Part shown: positions 1,855 through 30,606 of the stretch, in pieces
Numbering within the stretch: position 1 is the stretch's first letter
How the letters are laid out: every line of letters begins with the position of its first letter
DNA from: Saururus chinensis
Lineage: Eukaryota; Streptophyta; Magnoliopsida; Piperales; Saururaceae
DNA length: 64,000 nt
Reading direction: 5' to 3'
Assembly (NCBI GenBank): GCA_035235625.1
Contig: CP141148.1
Coordinates: 11,155,001-11,219,000, forward strand
Made by a program: the position numbers and the translations under genes
Notes under the pieces: model-generated
The model's database searches: none
What the model was told of the DNA's origin: nothing
What the model saw: only the letters and a program-made list of their open reading frames with translations

Positions 1855-4102
1855 CTAAGGACGACCAAAACAATATAGTTCGAAAGTAAAATCTAACATA
1901 AAGGTACGAGGCATTGATCCTGATAACTGGTTCATTGCCAAATCTAAGACTCGAAGAGAACCATGGTTTCCAAGCTCCGGAGGTATCTTCCCCAAGAAGC
2001 AATTTGATCTCAAACGAAGCACTCGAAGAACAGGGAAGCTTTCTCCCATCCACGCAGAAATATTTCCAGAGAGCTTGTTTCCGCCAACGTCAAGAGTTTC
2101 TAATCGTGAACAATTGATTATTGATGAAGGCAGCATACCAGACAAATTATTATCACTTAGGTGCAATGACTGAAGCCAATAAAGATTCCCCAATGACGGA
2201 GGTATCCGGCCAAATAAGTGATTCCCACTCAAATCAAGTGCTTCAAGGTCAGTACAATTACCCATGTTAAATGGTATTTCGCCAGTCAGATTGTTCTGAG
2301 AGAGATCGAGTGTCCAAATCCAAATTACCCTTTCACATAATAAAGGTATTGTGCCAGTTATGTTGTTATTGGATGCAAGAAAGGCGCGACTTCGAACAAA
2401 GCTCGGTGGAATAGAACTGTTAAACTGATTGTTGGATATATCAACCAACCAATAAGAATTTAAAAAAGAAGGAATTGGCCCCGAAAATTTGTTCAAGCTT
2501 AAATCAATAACTGCAAAACAGAGGAGGGTGCTGATCTTTAGGGAATTGACCTTCAATTTTGTTTTTGCTAAGATACAAGTGGCGTAGTCCAGGAATTATA
2601 TTAGAAAACCATTCCGGTAGTTTGCCACTAATGGATGTATTAGAGAGACCTAAATAAAATAATCTAGTTTGTGTTTTAAGCCAAGAAGGGAACTCAGATC
2701 CAATGTAGCATGATCTAAGAGAAAGACATTCCAGTTGAAAAGGAGGAACCCAATTAGATGGAAGTTGAATCTCCAAGGAAGTTGATGACAGGACTAGTGT
2801 CTTCAATTTGGACATGCTTTTCAAATGATCTTCAATTACTCGTCCATGTAGAAAATTACTAGAAAGACGAAGGTCATTCAGGTTAGATAGTTTTCCTAAA
2901 CAGCCTGGAATGGTGCCTCTTAGCAGCGTCTCACCAAGATAAAGAGATTCCAATTTGCTGAGGAGACACAAAGAATCAGGTAAGTAACCCCCAATCCTGT
3001 TACCCGACAAACCCAAAATCCTCAAATTATATAGTTCACGGATCCCAAAAGGGATGACACCAGTAATATTTCCATTATATGAAAAATCAAGCTCCTCAAG
3101 GGAAGTGATATTATAATCAGAAATTGGCAACTCTCCATATAACCCACTCCCCTGCATCTCTAACACTCTAATTTTGGTCCAGCCACTGGCGAAAAGCTTT
3201 GAAACATTTCCCTCGATCAAGTTAGAACTCAATCTAAGTTCTTCCAAGTTGGGTTGTTCTGAGAACTTGGAAGTAATTAACCCTTCAATCCTATTGGAAG
3301 AGGCATCAACCGATAAAAGGGTACTGATATTTGCGAGCCATAAAATCAGAGATGACCCATTGAGTTTGTTGGAGGAGATATCAATGACCCTAAGAGATGA
3401 AGAATTTGAAACGGGAAGCGGGCGGGAAACACCTTGAAGATCACAGTCTTGCAAATGCAACTCATTTAGGGAGGGAAGGGAACTGAACACACTCATCCAT
3501 TCATGACTAGCTGCGGAAAGGTTCACCGAGTTCATGTTCAGAAACTTTAAGGAGTACAAGTTGGACACCCAATGGAGGCTATCTACATAGAGGCTATCTA
3601 TAATGGTATTCTGGTTTGAGAAATCCATGATCTCAATTCTAGAGAGGTTCCCAAGATGCCGTGGAACTACTCCGCTAAATTCTGAATTGGATAGGTTCAA
3701 ATACCTGAGTTCACGAAACGAACCAAGGAAGTTGGGGATTGAACCATTGAACAAGTTAAAACTTAAATCCAAATATTGAAGATGTTTTAGCTCCAGCAAA
3801 GTCGGGTCCAAGTGACCACCAAGACTCCGGCAGAGCCGTTGTTCATCAACACATCGATTACTGAGGTCAAGTTTAATGACATACCCGGTTTCATTATGGC
3901 AGGTGATTCCTCTCCATTTGCAGCACTCTGGACATTCACTCCAAGACTGTAGAACGTTGGATTCGTCCAAGAGGCTGATTCTGACCTTGAGCAAGGCTTC
4001 TCGCTCTGATGGTCTGCATTGAATAGCTATAGTGCAAAGGATCGCATGAACAACAATGAGAACCCCTAGAATGACGCGGTTGTAAGAACAGCAGAACTCC
4101 AT
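1855..4102 (-). pseudogene. LRR receptor-like protein, copy 1 (frameshifted, C-terminus missing)
   Basis: This is a Cf/EIX-type receptor-like protein, a class of plasma-membrane immune or developmental receptors without a kinase. The ATG at 4102-4100 opens a 532-residue frame. It has a hydrophobic signal peptide (about residues 8-28), an N-terminal LRR cap (SEREALL; the CPECCKWRGITC cysteine pair) and many plant LRRs (LxxLxLSxNxxxGxIPxxL). The frame ends at 2504. Relative to copy 2 (38746-40929), about one extra base near 2513-2522 shifts the reading, and LRRs continue in another frame (2556-1855). Similarity to copy 2 stops near 1898, just after SMPRTF, so the last LRRs, juxtamembrane region, transmembrane helix and tail are missing. 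The coding part is intronless, as usual in the family. A normal protein would be roughly 950 residues. It is very unlikely to make a working receptor. Confidence 0.88.
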
Positions 4103-4490: not shown

Positions 4491-4981
4491 CTGAAAATAA
4501 CCTATCTAAAACACAAATTTTGCGAAACTTTTGAAATTATGAAAATTTAGTGAAATAAGCAAATTTCAAAATAAATTTCTGTCCATGCCCATTTTTCTAA
4601 AAATAGAGATCATTTGGTTATATTAAAAGATTTTAGGCCTCTAGGTTTTATGGGTATAAAAAAAGTTGCTAAATTTTTTATAAAGATAGGACTCGTATTT
4701 GGGTATGGGGCCTGAATACGGGACCTTTACTTGTGGCGTACCATTTGATCCCTGGGCCCCTACAGGCTACATGAGTAAATTGATTAACAAAAAATTGATT
4801 TTGATAAAATAATTTAAAATAACATATATTTAAATTCCCAATTAACATCTCATGCTCCTCATCCTTGCATTTACTAAATTACCCTTTAAATTTACCTTAA
4901 ACTCTGCCATTGTGTCTTGCAATGTTGAACCAAAGCCCGGATTAAGGAGAATGGTTGTATCCGGTTGACAATCAACAATAA
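4491..4981. other. AT-rich spacer before the MULE
   Basis: AT-rich with no coding sequence recognised. It was contiguous with 12024 onward before the MULE inserted. Confidence 0.5.
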
Positions 4982-4990
4982 TTTTTTTTA
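4982..4990. repeat. MULE target-site duplication, left
   Basis: Eight T then A, matching exactly 12015-12023. Nine bp is the usual Mutator target duplication. The low complexity of this 9-mer lowers its weight, but it sits exactly at both TIR ends. Confidence 0.8.
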
Positions 4991-5384
4991 GGGAAAATTA
5001 TTAAAATAATAATAAAAAAAATATTTACCAAAATATACCACTTTGGGAAATATTTCCCAAAGTGGTGTTCATTTTGGCCACGTAGGCGCCAGCTAAGCAG
5101 CTGGCGCCAGCGTGGCTTTTTTTTTTAAGTTGATTTCGTCGATTAGAACGACGAAATTAGCTTTAATACAATTTCGTCATTCTAAATAACGAAACCTTTT
5201 ATTACTTGACCCGGTTTCGTTGTTCAGAACGACGAAATCAACTTAAGCTGATTTCGTCGTTCTGAACGATGAAACTGCCACACTTGGCTAATTTCAACCT
5301 TTGGTCGCGGAACAACACTGATTTCGTCATTCTGAACGACGAAATCAACTTAAGTTGATTTTGTCGTTCTGAACGACGAAATCA
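4991..5384 (+). repeat. MULE left terminal inverted repeat
   Basis: Inverted match to 11617-12014. It contains a perfect 28-bp palindrome (5038-5065), a GGCGCCAGCT/AGCTGGCGCC hairpin (5085-5108), and six partly decayed hairpins built on GATTTCGTCGTTC/GAACGACGAAATC (about 5133-5157, 5171-5194, 5215-5238, 5250-5275, 5320-5345 and 5358-5383). Confidence 0.93.
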
Positions 5385-6135
5385 TCGTGCTTATACTTCC
5401 CAATCCACTCTGCCTCCAGTCGCCTCAGTGAACTGCTCTGCGCTCCGCCTCCGTCGAGCGATCCACCGCCCGCCTCTGCCGACATCCGGCCCGTCGCCGA
5501 CGTCCCGCCCGCCGTCGCCACCGTCCAGCCACCGCCGCCGCCGCCCAGGTCCAGCCCATCCGCTACCCGCGTCCAGCCCGCTCCAGTGCAGTTTTCTGGT
5601 GCGAACTTTTGCCTTCTTTTTTTTTTAGTCTCTTTTTTCAATCGTTGTAAAGGATCTTTTGTATGTTAAATTGAAGTAATTTATCTTTTGTATGCTATAT
5701 TGAATAAATTTGAAGTTTTAATTGTACCATCATTGTGCCCTAGTTTTAAAAGTATTGTTCTCAGTCGTTTTGTGTGTTTTTTTGTTTAAGATTATTGAAT
5801 TGAGATGAATTTTTAATTAATGAGTTTTTATTTGTTAAGATGCCAAGTCTCTCAAATTTTGGAAAATGAGGAGGATTTGAGTTTTTGAACATGCTTTTTT
5901 TACAGCTTATATGATTTGTGACATTGCATGTGTTATTGCATTAATTGTGTAATTTTATTAATTAGAAAATTTACTCATTAATATATAGTATTAATGATAT
6001 GCTTATATACTTGGTAAAGCTATTAGTTTCTATGCGTATATATTTTGAAAATATATTTGTTATGGTAGATATTAGTATTAGTTTGCTTAATCTAATATTA
6101 ATTTAATTTATTATTTATGAATTAATTGAATAGAA
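5385..6135 (+). other. MULE 5' leader region
   Basis: A C-rich block (5400-5600, rich in ccg and cgcc) is followed by T-rich DNA up to the transposase ATG. It probably holds the promoter, untranslated leader and perhaps a leader intron. No coding sequence is recognised; the short frames across the C-rich block are low-complexity. Confidence 0.5.
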
Positions 6136-8982
6136 ATGGCAGAAGAAATGGTTAGTTTTTTTATTAACTATGACGGACGCATAGAAGGATTATTAATGAA
6201 GAAACCGTCTACATTTGATGAATTTGAGATGCACGTAGCAAATAAGGTTGGGTTGGATCGAAGAAGATGGAAAATTACTATCAAATGTAATCTTCCGTCA
6301 TATAGATCGAGGATGACACTAATGTGCATATATGATGATGCATCAATGAGTTTTATGTTTCACCACTCGCGTCACATAATTTCTTTCGAGTTATTTCTCG
6401 AAAAAGAGGCCCGAGCAACTAGTGAAAGGTGAAGTAGTTCACATAGGAGCTCTCACAGAAGCTCACAAAGGAGCTCAGATAGAAATGTGAACAATGAAAG
6501 TCATATGTAAGTACCAGTGGACGACGAAGAAGAGGAAAATTTATCTATGACAGTAGCTTCAAATGAACGTCATAGGTCGTCTGCCCCTATTTACGATAGA
6601 AGTGGACCTACTTGGAGGTAAGGGTTGATTTAGTTGTGAATACGTTTCAATCTTATTATCCTTTAATAAAAATACGTTTAGCTAAATTTTGAGATTTTGT
6701 GTGTAATATGGAAGGTCCACGATGCATGCACACGAGCCATTTAGCATTCAAATGTCTCAAGGTGGTGCATGGTATGAAACTCAAAGTTCGATGGGCCTTC
6801 ATTACCCCTACACGTATGTTGGTCATACCGATGCTGGACCATCTAATCAGAGGTGAAATATATATTTATAAATGAATTCAACTTTTTTAGGCTTACGAAA
6901 TTTAATACATATGCGATGTTTATATGTAGGGGGGGATATGTCTACGGTGAAGATATTGATGAAAATGAGGATAATGAAGATGAAGATAATATTGACGAAG
7001 TAAGTGGAGAAGATTTTGATATGAATGTAGAAGGGGTTAGAGGTGAAGAAAGTGCTCAACAGATGGTTGACGGCGAGGGGGATGATGCGGTAGACAATGC
7101 CATTGCTGGGAATGATATGAATGTAGATGTTGAAGAGCCGCCGTACTGTGAAGTGGAGCCACTTTATGCACACATCACAGATGAGGAGATAGATGCGGCA
7201 GTGAATTCTACAATGGATTTGGACCAACAAAATGAAGATGAGTTATACGTTGGCCGCATCTTTGAGAATAAAGAAGCATTTGTTACAGCCTTGCAAGAGT
7301 TTTCCATTCAAAATCATGTCGAATACAAGGTTGTACAAACAAATCCGGCGGAGTGTACAGTGAAGTGCATTAATAGCACTTGCCCTTGGAGAGTGCATGG
7401 CTCAATCAAAAGGGGTGGTGGGTCCTTTAAATTGTAGACGTACAAAGGTGACTACACATGTCGGAATGCCCAGCTTAGCACAGATCATAGGCAGTGTAGT
7501 GCCTCCTTTATTTCGAAGGTCATAATGCCCGCTATCCAAGCCGAATTAACTCTTACACCAGGGGATATTATTCAAAGAATGAAGGAGAAGTATCATGTTG
7601 ACATATCTTATAAGAAAGCATGGGCAGCAAGGAATATGGCGATCAAGGCCATTTATGGCGATTGGGTAGAATCATATAAATTGTTGCCAATGTACCTAAG
7701 GGTGGTGCAAGAAGCCAATCCTGACACCTACTACCACTTAGAGGATGATGTAGTACCTCGTGCAGATGGTGGCACTTGTAGGAGATTTAGACGGTTGTTT
7801 TGGGCGTTTGGGCCGTCTATAGCTGGGTTTCGACATTGCATCCCTGTGATTGGCGTTGATGCCACTCACTTATATGGCAGATATCCTGGTGCTCTTATGG
7901 CTGCAACGGCTACAGATGGAAATAATGGGTTATTTCCTCTTGCATTTGGGCTTGTCGGGAAGGAAGACGGAGACAATTGGAAATGGTTTCTAATGGAATT
8001 GAGGGATCATGTACTGATGTACATGACGAACATCGTCATTATTTCAGATCGACATAAGGGGCTTCAGAAGGCAGTGCCTGATGTTCTTCTAGAGCCGGAT
8101 TACCACCATCATTATTGCATCCGTCACATAAAAGCAAATTTTAAGGAGTTCAAAAATGATACACTAACGGACTTGATTGGGGCAGCAACTTGTGCACTCA
8201 CAGTAGAAAAGTTTGATGTTAAAATGGACTTGATTGGTCAAGAGAGTCCTAGGGTAAAACATCTCCTCTTAGGAGGAGAATTGCATCCTGCACAATGGTC
8301 CCTTGCACACGGTGGTTTTATGACATTTGGCATGATGACTACAAATATGGCTGAAAGTTTAAATAGCGTCTTGAAGGGGGCATGGGGGTTACCCATGCAG
8401 GCTTTAGTGTCAGCTATCTTTTATCAGCTCATAAAATTTTTTGTTAAACGGTCTTCTGCCGCCTCTACCATAGCCACCCCATATATTCCTAGAGTGGAAG
8501 CCATATTGAGAGAGCAAACAAGAAAAATTGGGGAGTATATAGTTAATAGGATCAACAGGAGTCAGTACGAAGTGACATCAATTCGTGCCGGCAAGGTTAT
8601 GGTAAATGCTGCAATGCATACTTGTACATGCAACATCCCTCAGGTTTATGGTTATCCTTGCTCGCGCCTTATCGCCGTGTGGGCAAAGTGGCGGGAGCCA
8701 ATCCATGCATCACTGTTTTACACATCTTCTACTTATAGAAATGTGTACTCCGCAGAATTTTATTCTCCTCGTGGTCGGGAGTATTGGGAGAGGGATATAC
8801 CGTTTGTGTTATACCCACCGATAGCAACAAGGCAACCCGGTTGCCCACGGTTTGTTCGCATTAGGAATACTATTGACCGCAGAACAATGGAAAGAGATGG
8901 TAGAGGAGGATATAAATGCGGGAGGTGTAAACAAAGTGGGCATAATAGTAAATCATGTAGAAACCCTCCTGTTGATTGGTAA
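6136..8982 (+). pseudogene. MULE transposase (MURA-like), three exons, three in-frame stops
   Basis: It would cut and join the element ends in the nucleus. A consistent exon model is 6136-6617, 6715-6852 and 6930-8982, with GT-AG introns and kept phase. The N-terminus (MAEEMVSFFINYDGRIEG) is the PB1-like domain of plant MULEs; an acidic linker and a MuDR DNA-binding region (CTVKCINSTCPWRVHGS) follow. The DDE core, numbered from Met 7525, has D112 (GVDATHL), D175 (ISDRHKGL) and E277 (NMAESLN). Next come a SWIM-like finger (CTCN...PCSR, with Arg381 where His is usual) and a CCHC knuckle (CGRCKQSGHNSKSC). In-frame stops: TGA 6430-6432, TAA 6508-6510 (the latter overlaps a GTAAGT that could be an alternative donor) and TAG 7435-7437. 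Full length would be about 890 residues, normal for the family. Confidence 0.92.
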
Positions 8983-9078
8983 ACATATAATCAACCTCTG
9001 TATTTATTATATTTTTTTAGTTATGTACGCATGTATTCCTTACGATTAATGATATGATCTTCATCTTCCACAGATCAT

Positions 9079-11365
9079 ATGGATCATGCAGAGCCTTGTT
9101 ACGGGCCAGGCCCGAGTGACGCTTCTTTACTCGTAGAGCAGGAGTCACATAGGTCTGCTGCTATTTGGAGAGGAGAGGTATGATAACTAAAAATAAAATT
9201 TGTTTTATTTTTTTTTGGTTGATATAGTACAACATGTTATAATTTTAAAATTTATTATAGGACCTCGGGTGCCTTGAGTGCACCGAACATTTTAAATATC
9301 TCCGCCATTGGCCTATAGATGAGCGTATATTACCTTATATCGAGCGAGCGGGATTCGGCCATTTCATTCATCTACAGTATGTTCGTCTCAATCGGCCTCT
9401 ATTGACAGCTCTTGTTGAGAGATGGAGGAGGGAGACACAGACGTTTCATTTGTCATATGGAGAGATGTCAATCACGCTCATGGATGTGGCAGTTCTATTA
9501 GGACTCCATATTGATAGACGTCCGGTGATAGGCACGACAGGAGGAGCTCATATGGATATATTAGTTAGACTTCTTGGTAGAGCTCCTCCTCCTACAGTGA
9601 TGCGTGGTAGCTGAGTGAGCCTACGATGGCTCTTACAGGAGTTTCGTGAGCTCCCAGCCGATGCTACAGAGATAGTTATCGAGCAGCATGCACGAGCCTA
9701 TATATTGCATTTACTTGGAGCCACCATATTTACGGATACCACGAGCAGCCACGTGCATGTTTCGTATCTCTCTCTCCTTGCCGGCTTTGACATGGCTGAC
9801 ACTTATTCATGGGGTAGTGCTACTCTCGCATTCTTATACCGAGAGTTAGGAATGGCATGCCAGGCCATGACCTTGGGGATTGCGGGTTGTTTGACTCTTC
9901 TTCAGGTAAATAAATGTGTAACTTTACTTGGAGTTTTAGTCACGTATAATTTTTTACTTCTAATATTTGTTATCACTATTTTATGACATAGTTATGGTCG
10001 TGGGAGCACTTACACGTCGGCCGACCAACTGCTGAGATGGGTCACTTGGTCGAGGGTGCTCCATTAGGGGCAAGGTAGGTTGTATTTATGTTTACCACAT
10101 TACTTTTTAAGCAACGTTTTATGAACATATGTTGAACTCATTTCTTAAATTTAACTCCTTAAGGTGGAATGTTCGGAAGAAGAGAACCGAAAATCCACAA
10201 GGAGTCCTCCGTTTGTATAGAGGGGAGTTAGACCACCAGCGGCCATACTAGGTAATTTTATTACCGTGTTGAACTTTTTTATGTAATAATTTTAAAAAGT
10301 TTTGTCGTGATTTAAACTAACTTATCTTTATATATTATATAGATTATTTGGCAGCCGTACTCGGAGGACTTGTTGGCTGTGATACCTCCACTCTGCACTG
10401 ACGGTCGAGAGGTGTGGCTTTCTCGAACCCCTCTCACATGTTATGAGATTATAGAGATGTATGTGCCAGATCGTGTAATGCTCCAGTTTAACCTGGAGCA
10501 AGGGGTCCCACCTTCTACTGTCGAGTTTGTCCATTGTATCACTCGACAGGGCCGCCATATTACCGACTGGGCTATATATCATGCGTCGTATATTGCTCGA
10601 TGAGAGGATAGGAGAGCCACTATTATTAGAGGGGAGTTGGCTACGACATTGCGAGATGTTCGTAGTACTTATATGCACTGGTATTTACCGATTACACGGC
10701 GATATATTTTACATCGCGATGATGTAGAGGAGATGACATATCAGCCTAGGGGAGCATCTGAGGCAGCTCTAGTAAGTATAACTTTGTTAATTAAGGCATA
10801 TATTATTTTCTTATTTCATTTTAATTATTTATCTAATATTTAATTTATTTTTTTATAGCTTCGTCAGATTCGACATACTAATGCGTATTTGAGTGATGCA
10901 CTTGTCACCTGTACTTCGCACGAGGACTTAGCAGCAACATGTGAGTCAGTGATTAGAGCGTCTAATGATGTCCTTCGTAGCTTGCCACTACTTCATTCGG
11001 TGATCACAGATGTTCATCGAGATTATCCTGTCGACAAGGCCGCTCAGACGCAGCCGATGCACTCTTCATGCCCTGATATTCCATCATCATCAGCAGCATA
11101 TAGCTCTCCTCCAGGTTCATCATTTCCAGACACTACACATGTCACTCAGCTAGATCCGATTTTATATTATCGACGACATCGGCCAGCTCGTATTGTACCA
11201 TCTATTACTTATGCTGAGCCGGAGCCCCAGCAGGAACCTGACATGGAGTCGCAGTCGAAGCCGGAGCCCGAGCCCCAGCCCCAGTCTGAGCCAGAGCCAG
11301 AGCCACAGCCAGAGGTAGATCATGAGGAGCTCGTACACCACCGTCGAGGACGAGGTCGAGGATGA
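9079..11365 (+). pseudogene. plant mobile domain (PMD) protein carried by the MULE, six exons, three stops
   Basis: PMD (aminotransferase-like, PF10536 type) proteins occur in plant transposons and as host proteins such as MAIN and MAIL1; their role in transposition is unknown. Exon model with GT-AG borders: 9079-9177, 9261-9905, 9992-10074, 10164-10251, 10343-10771 and 10859-11365. Exon 2 holds the hallmark core (LVERWRRETQTFHL, YGEMSITLMDVAVLLGL, then SLLAGF); exon 3 has LWSWEHLHVGRP; exon 5 has WQPYSEDLL. The C-terminus is a Pro-Glu-Gln repeat tail ending in RGRGRG. In-frame stops: TGA 9612-9614, TAG 10249-10251 (at an exon end) and TGA 10601-10603. It lies about 100 bp after the transposase, same strand, as a separate gene. 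The exon borders are my inference from phase and domain continuity. Confidence 0.85.
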
Positions 11366-11433
11366 GGACGTAGGAGATTATGATATTACTTGTGATGCAT
11401 TATATTTGTTACTCGTATATGATGTACTTTACT

Positions 11434-11506
11434 TATATTTGTTATGGTGATATTCATGATAGTGATATTTGTTATGGTGATATTCGTGATAGTGATATTT
11501 GTTATG
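11434..11506 (+). repeat. 30-bp tandem repeat, about 2.5 copies
   Basis: The unit atatttgttatggtgatat and its continuation repeat with a 30-bp period just after the PMD stop, presumably in the 3' untranslated region. Confidence 0.7.
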
Positions 11507-11616
11507 GGTGGAATGAATGAAGTCGTGCATATACATCTGTGTTCTGTGTTTTGAATGAATGAATAGGGATAGGTGATAAAATTAGTTTTAAATAGTAATT
11601 TTAAAAAAATTTAATT

Positions 11617-12014
11617 TGATTTCGTCGCTCAGAATGACAAAATCAGCTTAATTTGATTTCGTCGTTTAGAACGACAAAATCAGTGTTGTTCCACGACCAA
11701 AGGCCAAAATTAGCCAAGTGTGGCAGTTTCGTCATTCAGAACAACGAAATCGGCTTAAGTTGATTTCATCGTTCTGAACGACGAAACTGGGTCCAGTAAT
11801 AAAAGGTTTCATCGTTTAGAATGATGAAATCGTATTAAAGCCAATTTCGTCGTTCTAAACAACGAAATCAATGTAAAAAATAAAAAAAAGCCACGTTGGC
11901 GCCAGCTGCTTGGCTGGCGCCTGTGTGGCAAAAACAAACACCACTTTGGGAAATATTTCCCAAAGTGGTATATTTTGGTAAATATTTTTTTTTTATTATT
12001 TTAATAAATTTCCC
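11617..12014 (-). repeat. MULE right terminal inverted repeat
   Basis: Inverted partner of 4991-5384. The perfect 28-bp palindrome is kept at 11941-11968, the GGCGCC hairpin at 11898-11921, and the gatttcgtcg hairpin series runs from 11618 to about 11870. Confidence 0.93.
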
Positions 12015-12023
12015 TTTTTTTTA
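12015..12023. repeat. MULE target-site duplication, right
   Basis: Exact copy of the nine bases at 4982-4990. Confidence 0.8.
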
Positions 12024-13361
12024 TCAATTTCTATAAATTTCTATAACTTTCTTTTAGAGTCAAGTCTCATTCTCCCAAGCGATGAAACTTTTTAATGGGA
12101 ACAAACTATCCTTTAGAGTCTAAGTCTCCCAAGCAAAGGGATTTTCATTGTTCACAACCTGGACTACTTCTAAATACCACTGATTAGCACAGTTTCTCAA
12201 AGTCTTCATATAATATTTGATTTTGCAATACGTTAAAACTGAAATTTTACTAATACTACAAGAGAAACAATATTGTACACAATTCTTTAAATATTGATCA
12301 CAAACCAATATAAATTATGCTATTCAAAATTACACTCTATCCACAATGTACTAACACGTAATTTTGTCATTGCAACAAGTGGTCCAGAGTGTGGTGTTTC
12401 TCACGAAGTTTCTCATGGGTCCATTCAAAATATTATGGACTACTGGTTACTGAGTCAAGCAAGAGTTGTTGATGTCAAGGAATGAGCAACCATTGCCGAG
12501 AAGTTGCGATATGAGAGTGACAAGAAACGACACTACAATTGGGGAAAAAGAAGCGCAGCTGGAACAAGTGGAAGCCAACAACAATTGAGAGAGAAAGTGC
12601 AAGGATAATTACATGAGACGACCATTCAAGAGAAGATGAGTAAGCAATATATGCTGAAATTGCTTTTCAGGAAGTCTAGTCAATTGGACTTGTCATTGTC
12701 TCCTCTCTATTCTCTCTCCCCCCCTCTCACGCCTGTCAAAGCGAGCCCTAGCTTTGAAGAGAGGGGAGAGATTATGGCAATTTACTTTTAATTTCTAGAA
12801 TTCTTTATTTGATATTATTTTTTGAAATTAATAAATATAATATAAAATAAATATATTAGCTACTCATACTAATATGTCTTGCTAATATATTGGGTATTAG
12901 TGATGCATATAAGTTTGTATCACTAATATATTAGGTATTGTGATGCATAGAAGTTTGTGTCACTAATAGAAAGGCAGCCACACATGTTTTTATGCATCAC
13001 TAATAGATTTTATTTTATTTTTATTATTTTTAAAATATAATAATAATTATAATTATAAAAATTAAAACTAAATTATCATGCTCTCTTCCCTCTCATCTTC
13101 TCAATTCTCCTCTGTCCTCTCTCTCTCTATTTCCTCTCTCTTTCCTTTATCTCTCTCCTCCTCTCTTTCTCACATGCATCGATGTGAGCCCTAGCTTTGA
13201 GGAGGAGATGGGGGAGGGTATTTGGATATAATTTGAATTTTTATTTGATATTATATTTTAAAATTAAAAAATAGAAAATAAAATAAAATAAATATATGCA
13301 TTGTTAATATACTGGGTGTTAGCGACACATATAAGTTTGCATCGCTAATCCATTATATTTT
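12024..13361. repeat. RLP-upstream unit, continuation beyond the MULE
   Basis: This continues the unit interrupted at 4990. The part 12062-12697 closely matches 13650-14330, 17520-17917, 20880-21490 and, in pieces, 41090-41330 and 42890-43380. The frames seen inside (for example 12294-12485) are not conserved as protein between copies. No gene is called. Confidence 0.7.
12698..13361. mobile_element. repeat with gcgacacat-type subterminal motifs, copy 1
   Basis: Two CT-rich blocks, each followed by gagccctagctttgaggag, alternate with AT-rich DNA carrying repeated attagtgacacat/atataagtttgtatcgctaat words in both orientations. The same block returns at 17918-18574 and, partly, at 20071-20555. 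The motif style resembles subterminal repeats of CACTA elements, but no CACTA ends or target duplication are visible, so the class is a guess. Confidence 0.4.
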
Positions 13362-16300
13362 ATGAACTTATGAAGTGGACTCTTAGCTAGACTAGAAGAA
13401 AATGCCATAGATTATGCTTATTCACGTTTGTAATTGCATCATATTGATCCATTCACACCCTTTGAGCCAAGAAGAGAGCCAAGGCTTCAGATGGAAGCTA
13501 GAGACACTCTTATCTAAACACAAACCAAGTCATCGGGTACGAGAACACATGGAATGGACTTCTAAATGCAGCCTCCCCAGTCATTGTCAGCGTTTAAGAA
13601 TGAGAACCTGTCTATTTTAGAAAGAAAATAGTGATGAGAACAAATAATCTTTTAAAGTCAAGTCTCCTAAGCCAAGGAATCTTAAATGGGAACAAACTGT
13701 CTTTTAGAGTCAAGTCTCCCAAGCGAAGGGATTTTCATTGTTCACAGCGGACGACCTAGACTACTTCTAAATACCATTAATTAGCACATTTTCTCAAAGT
13801 ATGCATATAATATCTGATTTTGCAGTACATGAAAACTGAAATTTAACTTATACTACAAGAGAAACCATATTGTGCACAATTCTTCAAATATTGATCACAA
13901 ACCAATATAAATTATTCGATTCAAAATTACACTCCATCCACAATGTACTAATAATCAGTGTTGTCATTGCCACAAGTGGTCGAGAGAGTGGTGTTTCTCA
14001 CGAAGTTTCTCATGGGTCTCTTCCCTACCATTCAAAATCTTGTGGACATGTGGTTATTGAGTCAAGCAAGAGTTGTTGATGTCAAGGAATGAATAACCAT
14101 TTCCAAGAAGTTGTAATATGAGAGTGACAAGAAACAACACTATAATTGGGGGGGAAAAGAAGCGCAACTGCAATCAAGTGACAGCCAACTACAATTGAAA
14201 GAGAAAGTGCTAAGGGTAATTATATGAGATGACCATTCAAGAGAAGATGAGTACGTGATATGTGCTGAAATTGCTTTTCAAGAAGTCTAGTCAATTGGAC
14301 GTTTTCCTTGTAATGAGTACAGTGGAGAGGTAGACCAATGTTTTAAAAACCAGCCCAACAATTGATCCGGATTGGTTGCCGGGCCGGGTTAATTGGGTTC
14401 AACCATGGGTCAACCCGAGTTGACCCATTTTCCTAAATATAAGCTTGAATATAAAGTTAGGTAACAAATTTGCATAAAATCATTGTAGCTCAATCGGAAA
14501 GATTAAGCATTGATATCACCAGAGACTTTCTTCTTGATTTCTGGAGGAATGGAGCAACGTAAAGTAGATAAATATTATATAAAAGATAATTATATTTCAA
14601 TGAATACAATGTATTGTCTTTGAAGGTACCAAGAGCTATAGCATATTCAAATTGTGCTACACTCATTCCACAAACACAATGGCTTTCTTACTCTTTCTTT
14701 TTTTATAATATGTCAATTTTGGTTCTAACTTGTTTTAAACACCAAAACCAATTTACCCTTCATATAAATAGAATATTTCCTTCAAAACAAAAGATAGGGA
14801 GAGTTGTTTTTCTTGAGATAAATGCTAGCTTAATCTAGAGTTAATTTGGATCTATTTTCTCTTGTGTGTCTCAAACTCTTTTATTCAAGTGATCTTTCTT
14901 ATTTATTTCTTTTCAAGCTATCCGGGATGGCTATGTTTGACAGAGACTAACACAAATAAAAATGAACAGAAAACTATCACGACCTATAAGGCACAACATT
15001 ATTACCTCATTTGCAAATAAAAAGCAAGGTGTACTAAGGGAGAACAATGGGAACACATAAACACACAAAGAACGAGGAAATGGAATAAATAGATATACGT
15101 GCTAATGAAGGATAAAGGGAAGAAACAGAGAATCGTATATAAATAATAAAATAATTAAATCTAAATCTCAATTCATCGTCTTAGAAATGATTGGAATAGA
15201 AAATGTATGTCATACGATTCACTTTTCTCTACTCAACATGTGCACAGTTTCATGTAGAATGAATCTACCTTTGCTAAAGAATGTCATCAAACATCACAAA
15301 TGCATTAGGCTTGTTATTGCTCGAGTCACAGTTTTGAAACTTTTTCATTATCAAAATTGTTAATTTGAGACCCAACTTATTCTGATTTTAAATGTATGAC
15401 ACAGATGTGTGTTTGGATCGCATGGATCTAGTTTTAAACCTTTGCTCATTTATTAGTATACTTAAATTATGGAAGAGTGCTGACAGTATCCCACATGAGT
15501 AAAGTTGTCGTTAGAATTAAATTATCATTTACACAAGAAATTAGGCCCATCACAATTCATAGGTTTTCCAAACTGAATATTGTAAATTTTCAGCATTCTT
15601 GGACATATTGTTTGTTTGTACACAATTGAAAGACAGCAATAAAGGACCAATCAATATGGACTAGTCAATCCATTCCACATTTCCTCGGTATGTCAAACCT
15701 ATCAATTCTGTAAGAAAATATAGCTCATTGCAAATTGAGATACTCATCAATGACAAAATTTTCTCCTTCAAAGCATTTCATCAAACAAAACAAAGACACG
15801 CATCTTTCAATATGTTTAACGAACCTTTTCTTGACTCTAACTATTAAAATGATAACCCCACGAAGCCTCCAACAAAAACAAAATTTTTACATCACCCTCA
15901 TTCCCCAATGAGGATAGTTGGATCTGCCAACTTCTAGAAACCAGGCGACCTCATTGGCGTTTTCTACACATCCCAGGGCCAGCTGATGAGGGGGAGAGAG
16001 AGAAACCTGATGGTGACTTCAATGCAGGTGCGGACCGCCGGAGGAACTAAGACCAGTGGATTGTTGACGGAGGAGCCAGACGAGGAAAGGAATAGGACAG
16101 AGCAAAGCAGCGACTGCCAGAGATAATCCCACTATATATATAAATTTAAGTTTTTTTTTATCTTCAGTCTTCTATATGAATATGATGTGTGGTATTATGT
16201 GTTTTTTTTTTTGTGTGTGGAGCTTTTGAATTTCACTGAGATTGAATGTCTGATTTGAGCTGTGAAAGAGATTGGCGGCCGGCCTCATTGGCATTGCGGA

Positions 16301-20555: not shown

Positions 20556-23500
20556 TCCATTATATTATATGAACTTATGATATGGTCTCTTAGCTAGACT
20601 AGAAGAAAATGCCATAGAACGTTTGTAATTGCATCATATTGATCCATTCACACCCTTTGAGCCAAGAAGAGAGCCAAGGCTTCAGCTGGAAGCTAGAGAC
20701 ACTCTTATCTAAACACAAACCAAGTCATCGGGTACGAGAACACATGGAACGGACTTCTAAATGCAGCCTCCCCGGTCATTGTCAACATGTAAGAATGAGA
20801 ACTTGTCTATTTTAGAAAGCAAATAGCGATGCGAACAAATAATCTTTTAAAGTCAAGTCTCCTAAGAGAAGGAATCTTAAATGGGAACAAACTATCTTTT
20901 AGAGTCAAGTCTCCCAAGCGAAGGGATTTTCATTGTTCACAGCGGACGACCTAGACTACTTCTAAATACCATTAATTAGCACATTTTCTCAAAGTATGCA
21001 TATAATATCTGATTTTGCAGTACATTAAAACTGAAATTTAACTTATACTACAAGAGAAACCATATTGTGCACAATTCTTCTAATATAGATCACAAACCAA
21101 TATAAATTACGCTATTCAAAATTACACTTCATCCACAATGTACTAATAATCAGTGTTGTCATTGCCACAAGTGGTCCAGAGCGTGGTGTTTCTCATGGGT
21201 CTCTTCCCTACCATTCAAAATCTTGTGGACCAGTGGTTACTGAGTCAAGCAAGAGTTGTTCATGTCAAGGAATGAGCAACCATTGCTGAGAAGTTGTAAT
21301 ATGAGAGTGACAAGAAACAACACTATAATTGGGGGGAAAAAGAAGCGCAACTGCAATCAAGTGGCGGCCAACTACAATTGAAAGAGAAAATGCTAAGGAT
21401 AATTATATGAGATGACCATTCAAGAGAAGATGAGTACGTGATATGTGCTGAAATTGCTTTTCAGGAAGTCTAGTTAATTGGACATTTTCCTTGTAATGAG
21501 TATAGTGGAGAGGTAGACCAATGTTTTAAAAACCAGCCCAACAATTGATCCGGATTGGTTGCCGGACCGGGTTAATTGGGTTCAACCATGGGTCAACCCG
21601 AGTTGACCTATTTTCCTAAATATAAGCTTGAATATAAAGTTAGGTAACAAATTTGCATAAAATTGTTGTAGCTCAATCGGAAAGATTAAGCATTGATATC
21701 ACCAGAGACTTTCTTCTTGATTTCTGGAGGAATGGAGCAACGTAAAGTAGATAAATATTATATAAAAGATTATTATATTTCAATGAATACAATGTATTGT
21801 CTTTGAAGGTACCAAGAGCAATAGCATATTCAAGTTGTGCTACACTCATTCCACAAACACAATGGCTTTCTTACTCTTTCTTTTTTTTTAATATGTCACT
21901 TTTGGTTCTAACTTGTTTTAAACACCAAAACCAATTTACCTTTCATATAAATAGAGTATTTCCTTCAAAAACGAAAGATAGGGAGAGTTGTTTTTATTGA
22001 GATAAATGCTAACTTAATCTAGAGTTAATTTGGATGTATTTTCTCTTGTGTGTCTCAAACTCTTTGATTCAAGTGATCTTTCTTATTTATTTCTTTTCAA
22101 GCTATCCGGGATGGCTATGTTTGACAGAGACTAACACAAATAAAAATGAACAAAAAACTATCACAGCCTATAAGGCACAACATTATTACTCCATTTGCAA
22201 ATAAAAAGCAAGGTCTGCTAAGGGAGAACAATGGGAACACATAAACACACAAAAGAACAAGGAAATGGAATAAATAGATATACGTGCTAATGAAGGATAA
22301 AGGGAAGAAACAGAGAATCGTATATAAATAATAAAATAATTAAATCTAAATCCCAATTCATCGTCTTAGAAATTATTGGAACAAAAAATGTATATGTCAT
22401 ATGATTCACTTTTATCTACTCAACATGTGCACAGTTTCATGTAGAATGAATCTACCTTTGCTAAAGAATGCCATCAAACATCACAAATGCATTAGGCCTG
22501 TTATTGCTCGAGTCACAGTTTTGAAAAGTTACTTTGAGACCCAACTTATTCTAATGTTAAATGTATGACACAGATGTGTGTTTGGATCACGTGGATCTAG
22601 TTTTAAACCTTTGCTCATTTATTAGTATACTGAAATCATGGAAGACTGCTGACAATATCCCACATGAGTAAAGTCTCCATTAGAAGTAAATTATCATTTG
22701 CACAAGAAATTAGGCCCATCACAATTCATAGGTTTTCCAAACTGGATATTGTAAATTTTCACATTCTTGGACATATTGTTTGTTTGGACACATTTGAAAG
22801 ACTACAATAAAGGACCAATCAATACAGACTAATCAATCTATTCCACATTTCCTCGGTATCCATTCTGCATTTCCTTGGTATTTTTATTATTTTTTAATTT
22901 TAGTTGTATTAATATTTTGTTTAATTACTACTTAATTTTTTATGTGTTGTAATTAATTTTTATAGAATAAGTAATGGTGAAAAAAATAGAAATGAGAAAT
23001 GGACTACCCAAGAGGATTGTACAATGCATGATCTTTTAAGAACTAAAAAATAATGGGCTTAGAGTTGGAAATGCACAGGTATCTACTATGTGGCTAACTG
23101 TCTTGTAAAAGTTTATAGAGAGGACTTGGGTTATAGAAACAAAAAACCTATGTTATCAATCAATTAAAAACGTGGAAAAAATTTACAAAGATGGGATGAA
23201 AATGTTATCAAAGAGTAGAGTTGGGTGGGACTCGACTATCCGGAGAGTTACTCTTGAGGAGTATCAGTAGAGTGAACTAATTGCTTTATGCTAGTTTTCT
23301 ATAGAATATTTATGTAAATATTTAGTCATGGAATTATGCTAGTAAGATGTGAATTTTTTATTTGGACGTAGGAAGATGTGGTTTTTTATTTAGAGAAGGC
23401 TGATCTTCACGTAGTCACAAGTGGATTAAAGGAGCAATTAAAGAAGATACAGATTTTATGTTTGTTGATGCATTGAGGTAGATGACATCTATTATGAAGT

Positions 23501-30162: not shown

Positions 30163-30606
30163 GGGTATGTTTGGCTTGCTCTTTAAAGTAGAAAGAAAAT
30201 AGTTTTTTATTAAAATAATTTTTTAGCAAGAAAAACATAAACGGAAGATGTTTGATTAGAATTTATTTAGATGATTTTAAAGAGAAATCTGATTTTAGAT
30301 TAATTTTGCCTTTTATGTGTAAAATGTCAAGAATATATTCTAGCATAATTATGGCACAAAAGATATAATGGGTGGAATGCCTTTTCACATTATTTTAAAA
30401 AAGAAATAGCTTTCTTTAAAAACTCTCCTTAAGGAGAGTTCTTGAACAAATTAAATTTTAAGTCAATTCAGTTTAAATTGACCTAAAAGGTGTTTTTCAA
30501 CAGGAAAAGCCATGTCAAATTAAAATGGGTCATCAAAATTTGTTTTAGTGCTTTCCCATGTCGAAAAAGCACTTTCTAGCTGTAGAAAGCGCCTCCCAAA
30601 TGACCC
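30163..30606. mobile_element. Tourist-like MITE B
   Basis: It starts GGGTATGTTTGGCTTGC and ends CCTCCCAAATGACCC, which read inward share GGGT..TTTGG. TAA flanks both sides (30160-30162 and 30607-30609). There is no coding capacity. It is longer than MITE A, mainly in the left half. Confidence 0.65.

Follow-up and report, generated by a model that had tools for sequence, protein, structure and literature searches.

Among described transposons, the closest architecture that we found for the element reported here is that of Muta1, a Mutator-like element (MULE) of Aedes aegypti, although the arrangement differs. Muta1 carries a complex terminal inverted repeat (TIR) with arrays of short repeats, as do 10 of the 12 mosquito MULE families with long TIRs, and it has more than 300 putative nonautonomous derivatives in which the number of repeats is variable (PMC5225508). 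Our element is a MULE of 7,024 bp at positions 4991-12014 of a 64-kb stretch of the Saururus chinensis genome (C9:11155001-11219000, hereafter the window), and all genome-wide counts below refer to 516 Mb in 11 contigs. Each of its TIRs holds a perfect 30-bp palindrome, a GC-rich hairpin and six 23-bp dyads. Our results favor, with moderate confidence, the reading that the palindromes are double-stranded, two-fold-symmetric sites for dimers of a protein encoded by the element.

Muta1 and other long-TIR MULEs of A. aegypti share with the present element a MULE transposase, a target-site duplication (TSD) of 8-9 bp, and a long TIR composed of a palindromic terminal motif and a subterminal array of short repeats (PMC5225508). 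Of the features of Muta1-like or type 2 Foldback complex TIRs, a palindrome and arrays of two to six dyads were found, but the palindrome, 30 bp long and perfect, is not at the tip, its centre lying 56-65 bp inside, and the array is built of inverted 23-bp dyads, many of them 37-38 bp apart. Of the other transposons compared, VANDALs are MULEs, and the CACTA transposase belongs to another superfamily. VANDAL21 is described as a transposon with dense short noncoding motifs that are bound by its own protein VANC21, which causes loss of methylation (PMC5735166); these motifs have nine bases in a single orientation and are often tandemly repeated in noncoding DNA. Short motifs that recur close to the ends and can form palindromes are also present in the CACTA elements Spm/En and soybean Tgmt* (2 + 12 in Tgmt*), and TNPA is reported to bind those of Spm/En. 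A protein site is only proposed for Tgmt*, and CACTA elements differ in having 13-bp TIRs, a 3-bp TSD and motifs internal to the short TIRs (PMC2613891).

Long modular foldback terminal repeats and a 9-bp TSD are shared with the Foldback-like MULEs Tm1 (PMC3169594), which includes members like miniature inverted-repeat transposable elements, and with MuTAnT and, as cited in the MuTAnT paper, FARE1 (PMC4486113); neither a perfect 30-bp palindrome nor paired dyads were found in the parts of these descriptions that were available. A preliminary description of the locus had called such a density of palindromes unusual for a Mutator TIR. This holds in part, since complex repeat-array TIRs are on record for Muta1 and other mosquito MULEs (PMC5225508) and for Foldback-like MULEs (PMC3169594, PMC4486113). 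A literature search, with Repbase and most subscription papers outside its reach, gave no match to the literal motif strings, which is weak evidence of novelty. The exact arrangement looks new; the kind of thing is already known.

Palindromes and paired dyads in the terminal repeats

The sequence ACCACTTTGGGAAATATTTCCCAAAGTGGT is a perfect 30-bp palindrome present in both TIRs, at 5037-5066 and 11940-11969. The preliminary description was right about its perfection and its presence in both repeats, and gave its length as 28 bp. In a palindrome scan these two copies were the longest perfect palindromes of the window, the next longest being 20 bp. In 13 full TIRs the centre lies 56-65 bp from the tip. 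The palindrome contains no CpG, consisting of 18 A/T and 12 C/G letters, and its core is the tip hexamer of the element, GGGAAA, twice and inverted. Genome-wide, with every site reported on both strands, the pattern was matched exactly 487 times and 1,855 times at up to three mismatches; the reversed pattern, used as a control, gave 0 matches.

Interior to the palindrome lies a GC-rich hairpin of the form GCCACG..GGCGCC..GGCGCC..CGTGGC, read from the sequence at 5077-5116 (and folded) and at 11890-11929, so that the GGCGCC-armed hairpin reported earlier is indeed present in both TIRs.

Further inside, each TIR carries near-perfect 23-bp dyads, TTTCGTCGTTC-N-GAACGACGAAA, with four CpGs apiece. 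A dyad scan placed units U1 to U6 of the left TIR at 5134-5156, 5172-5194, 5215-5237, 5252-5274, 5322-5344 and 5359-5381; U3 and U4 together form a 62-bp near-palindrome (5214-5275), and U5 and U6 one of 66 bp (5319-5384). In the right TIR the order is reversed, with U6 at 11620-11642, U5 at 11657-11679, U4 at 11727-11749, U3 at 11764-11786, U2 at 11807-11829 and U1 at 11845-11867. All 12 units of the window thus fall within the two TIRs; none was found in the rest of the window, nor in five mononucleotide shuffles of it. Twelve of 13 full TIRs share the spacings 38, 43-44, 37, 70 and 37 bp. By hand, 34 arrays of two to six dyads were grouped from 151 units, with 12 isolated units omitted (at L041, L043, L044, L046, L051, L053 and L054). 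Intervals of 37-38 bp make up 57 of the 105 in these arrays, and at least one such interval occurs in 31 of the 34. The six hairpins per TIR of the preliminary description are therefore confirmed, and their phasing only partly: dyads are paired at 37-38 bp, and the gaps that separate the pairs vary.

Conservation, pairing and decay

Conservation was judged in an alignment of 24 TIRs of one subtype, the window's two included, which were chosen from 50 TIR ends by a subtype string preceding the palindrome. Stretches of 21 columns with more than one third mismatches or gaps were masked, as TIRs that ended early had inflated rates, and sites were split by base class, since cytosines change most. 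Twenty of the loci (L039-L058) had been picked through exact palindromes on contig C1 and are biased for the palindrome, the conservation of which was consequently judged only on seven TIRs obtained by whole-TIR BLAST (L002-L008) and on a flank-anchored count.

In the 24 TIRs, A/T sites had changed in 22 of 1649 cases in the dyads (1.3%) and in 62 of 1256 in the spacers (4.9%), a 3.7-fold difference (column test, p=0.03); when variable A/T columns were compared in the seven rows, p was 0.035. For the 30-bp palindrome, 2 of 210 cells had changed in L002-L008, against 45 of 748 non-CpG spacer cells (Fisher p=7e-4), and at non-CpG C/G sites alone the counts were 1/84 and 29/292 (p=0.018). The genome-wide flank-anchored count required exact flanks but left the 30 bases that they enclose free, and gave 132 sites; among the 100 listed, 45 held the exact palindrome. 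Spacer rates, as estimated from nine same-flank TIRs, would predict 14% (bootstrap 9-21%), or 17.5% as an average over single TIRs. Sets of 13 rows point the same way. A spacer control (489 sites at up to three mismatches, 85 listed as exact, against 487/1855 for the palindrome) was set aside, as it sampled different copies and contained a misplaced ambiguous letter. The palindrome and the dyads thus change less than the spacers with base class controlled, and the statistics are modest.

Several observations weigh against reading these differences as maintenance of binding sites. Counted as variable A/T columns in the 24 rows, dyads (17/81) and spacers (21/66) differ with p=0.097 only, and protection is not clear at CpG sites (dyads 118/977, 12.1%; spacers 25/154, 16.2%; p=0.11). 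In the seven rows, palindrome and spacer do not differ significantly at A/T columns (p=0.14), and the advantage of the palindrome over the terminal 46 bp is weak (2/210 versus 12/316, p=0.038) and not significant within either base class. In the nine flank-matched TIRs, the terminal stretch, part of which had been selected as exact, had changed in just 6 of 361 cells. The copies share descent, so that cells are not independent, and flank anchoring favors young copies. A few other elements carry dyad-like units apart from the arrays, some of the 12 isolated units among them. The match of the palindrome core to the tip hexamer was equalled by 2-4% of arm shuffles (p=0.02-0.04), and this likeness is only a hint. 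As to whether the palindromes are more conserved than their neighbors, then, the 30-bp palindrome is better kept than the interior spacers, with no clear advantage over the terminal 46 bp. Nor is it universal, as it is deleted or decayed in several of the sampled copies.

The GC-rich hairpin behaves differently, and for this reason the treatment of the three palindromes as a single class was rejected. Its non-CpG sites had changed in 32 of 584 cases (5.5%), compared with 3.6% in the terminal 46 bp and 7.0% in the spacers; it is the least conserved of the three classes. It was unmatched, at up to five substitutions and in either loop direction, in 16 of the 50 TIR ends. Of 730 sites matched genome-wide at up to three mismatches, 714 had the standard loop and 16 (∼2%) a flipped one; inversion of the loop relative to the arms, as though it had turned over by way of a hairpin, was seen at TIR ends L051_2603 and L054_3053. 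The GC-rich hairpin looks like a flipping structure and not like a maintained one.

If pairing between arms were what selection maintains, a change on one side should be accompanied by its counterpart on the other. The dyad arms had 7 double-changed pairs, 6 of them complementary, where 6.1 were expected, alongside 126 single changes, and the palindrome arms had 28 where 27.9 were expected (24 of 1548 sites, defined below). Full symmetry had been regained in two of 19 non-exact palindromes, where 0.4 would be expected (p=0.05), and by eye L043 showed one symmetric change; these cases are treated as chance or rare arm conversion. Selection for hairpin pairing as the driver was therefore rejected for dyads and palindrome, neither of which showed covariation beyond chance.

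The decay is dominated by one type of change. Among the 118 changes at dyad CpGs, C>T accounted for 50 and G>A for 60, 110 in all. When C>T/G>A was permitted at the 12 C/G letters of the palindrome, 1,548 sites were found with all 18 A/T letters intact, a pattern that itself requires unchanged A/T letters; of 24 such sites, 5 were exact, 8 had one or two changes and 11 had five to ten. The prevalence of C-to-T and G-to-A changes at dyad CpGs, together with the decay of the CpG-free palindrome, suggests that these DNAs were probably methylated in the past, at CpG and also at non-CpG sites.

Candidate protein sites and rival explanations

Three roles had been suggested for the present palindromes, namely binding sites, stalling of replication forks and production of small RNAs, and the first, for the transposase or another element protein, fits best, since fewer changes are seen in the palindrome and the dyads than in the spacers and the paired arms do not covary; of pairing selection there is no sign in these arms. 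The absence of excess compensatory changes likewise favors sequence-specific protein binding over selection for hairpins. The 30-bp palindrome would then be a dimer site for the element's own transposase, and the interior dyads, often paired 37-38 bp apart, may bind additional dimers, either of the transposase or of an accessory protein of the element, with host methylation of dyad CpGs possibly modulating the binding. The layout would resemble that of the subterminal motif arrays of CACTA elements and of Muta1. In maize, MURA binds a site inside the MuDR TIR. In keeping with a role in binding, one open frame of the present element contains a DNA-binding domain of MuDR type (PF03108), and element proteins that act on motif arrays have precedents in TNPA of Spm/En (PMC2613891) and VANC21 (PMC5735166). 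A more specific version, which we regard as clearly unlikely, holds that the CpG-free palindrome anchors the transposase regardless of CpG methylation, while the paired CpG-rich dyads at their 37-38-bp pitch act as a methylation-sensitive switch that controls transposition or expression; the reader would be a protein of the element, for instance its transposase or the co-encoded Plant-mobile-domain protein.

The TIRs could instead be a source of small interfering RNAs (siRNAs), where read-through transcripts fold on the nested palindromes and are cut by Dicer, and the resulting small RNAs guide methylation to the family. Host silencing would in this case make use of the symmetry. As RNA, the dyad array folds at -116 kcal/mol (z -14.1) and the terminal part at -62.7 kcal/mol (z -10.2), and the mainly C>T/G>A decay, which in other copies also runs through non-CpG C/G letters of the palindrome, is what would be expected if CHH sites were methylated too; long MULE TIRs have moreover been linked with siRNAs (PMC6446971). 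Such a source, however, offers the element no reason to retain the sites, and compensatory changes are not in excess. No Rfam family matched at gathering score in 4900-12100, which says little about siRNAs. We consider this explanation possible, though unlikely, and small RNAs from TIR hairpins may arise as a by-product. Hairpins might also act as DNA, if palindromes extrude as cruciforms and thereby aid excision, fork stalling or exchange between TIRs. The flipped loops of the GC-rich hairpin are what hairpin-mediated inversion would give, and internal deletions interrupt the 30-bp palindrome at L041, L045, L051 and L053. Yet the GC-rich hairpin is the least conserved class, the arms of the other palindromes do not covary beyond chance, and instability points to possible hairpin formation, not to a benefit from it; this possibility strikes us as quite improbable. 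Finally, the family could be young and the array a functionless remnant of palindrome-prone duplication, with mutation bias accounting for the low A/T change. The scored transposase copies are indeed close in sequence to the window's copy, cytosines dominate the decay, and CpG columns are without clear protection. We hold it to be improbable against the 3.7-fold lower change of dyad A/T sites, the near-invariance of the palindrome at non-CpG C/G sites in the seven unbiased TIRs, and the recurrence of the 37-38-bp pairing in diverged elements.

The element, its family and its surroundings

The left TIR spans 4991-5384 (394 bp, plus strand; tip GGGAAAATTATT; included in the 24-TIR alignment) and the right one 11617-12014 (398 bp, minus strand). 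They were delimited as inverted-repeat arms, with a complementarity of 88-89%, or 89.2% by BLAST. Both are flanked by the 9-bp TSD TTTTTTTTA, in identical copies at 4982-4990 and 12015-12023. On the plus strand between them lie an open frame with the MuDR-type DNA-binding domain DBD_Tnp_Mut (6853-7437; PF03108, E 3.7e-11), the transposase frame with the MULE domain (7525-8982; PF10551, E 3.6e-19, 69.5 bits against a cut-off of 27.6) and a Plant mobile domain frame (9615-9986; PF10536, E 2.8e-19). The earlier assignment to the Mutator-like class is thus borne out by the PF10551 domain, the 9-bp TSD and the long TIRs, 89% identical. A CACTA element, which needs CACTA tips and a 3-bp TSD, is ruled out by the GGGAAA tip and the 9-bp TSD.

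A Plant-mobile-domain frame follows the transposase in 30 of 30 transposase loci (L009-L038), the window's own among them. Capture of this domain by MULEs of grasses and Amborella, with speculation about a role in anti-silencing, is reported in PMC5418596. A search of the genome with the window's transposase gave 4,436 first-look candidates, of which 88 were scored, namely the window's copy itself and 87 others that are 90-95% identical to it.

Nineteen TIR pairs, from the window and the sampled loci, had a 9-bp TSD that was exact in 14 cases (2 of them after the left end had been moved by 2 or 9 bp), had one mismatch in 3 and was absent in 2. The 14 elements with an exact TSD range from 754 bp (L041) to 7,107 bp (L040). 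All 14 TSDs are AT-rich with a final A adjoining the tip, which suggests a target preference. Queries for the transposase, the DNA-binding domain, the Plant mobile domain and the C-terminal region found no match at L042, L044, L046, L051, L053 and L054, and only the C-terminal query matched at L056; the elements at these seven loci are taken for nonautonomous relatives with common ends. At L054:3053-5032 an element encloses other TIR-like ends (3402 and 4932), one of which fuses hairpin sequence to half a palindrome in a manner resembling template switching.

Elsewhere in the window, two near-identical palindromes, ATGGGTCAACCCGAGTTGACC(C/T)AT, lie outside the element at 14405-14428 and 21588-21611 and perhaps belong to another repeat family, and a perfect 20-bp palindrome, AACTCTCCTTAAGGAGAGTT, is found at 30421-30440. 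A leucine-rich-repeat receptor-like open frame (2504-4102, minus strand; named by eye) adjoins the element.

Taken as a test case, a TIR that looks like a series of hairpins can be examined for pairing selection from its sequence alone, and this one fails. With many natural copies at hand, the rate of change can set candidate protein sites apart from filler, and the cis-code of MULE ends thereby becomes directly testable.
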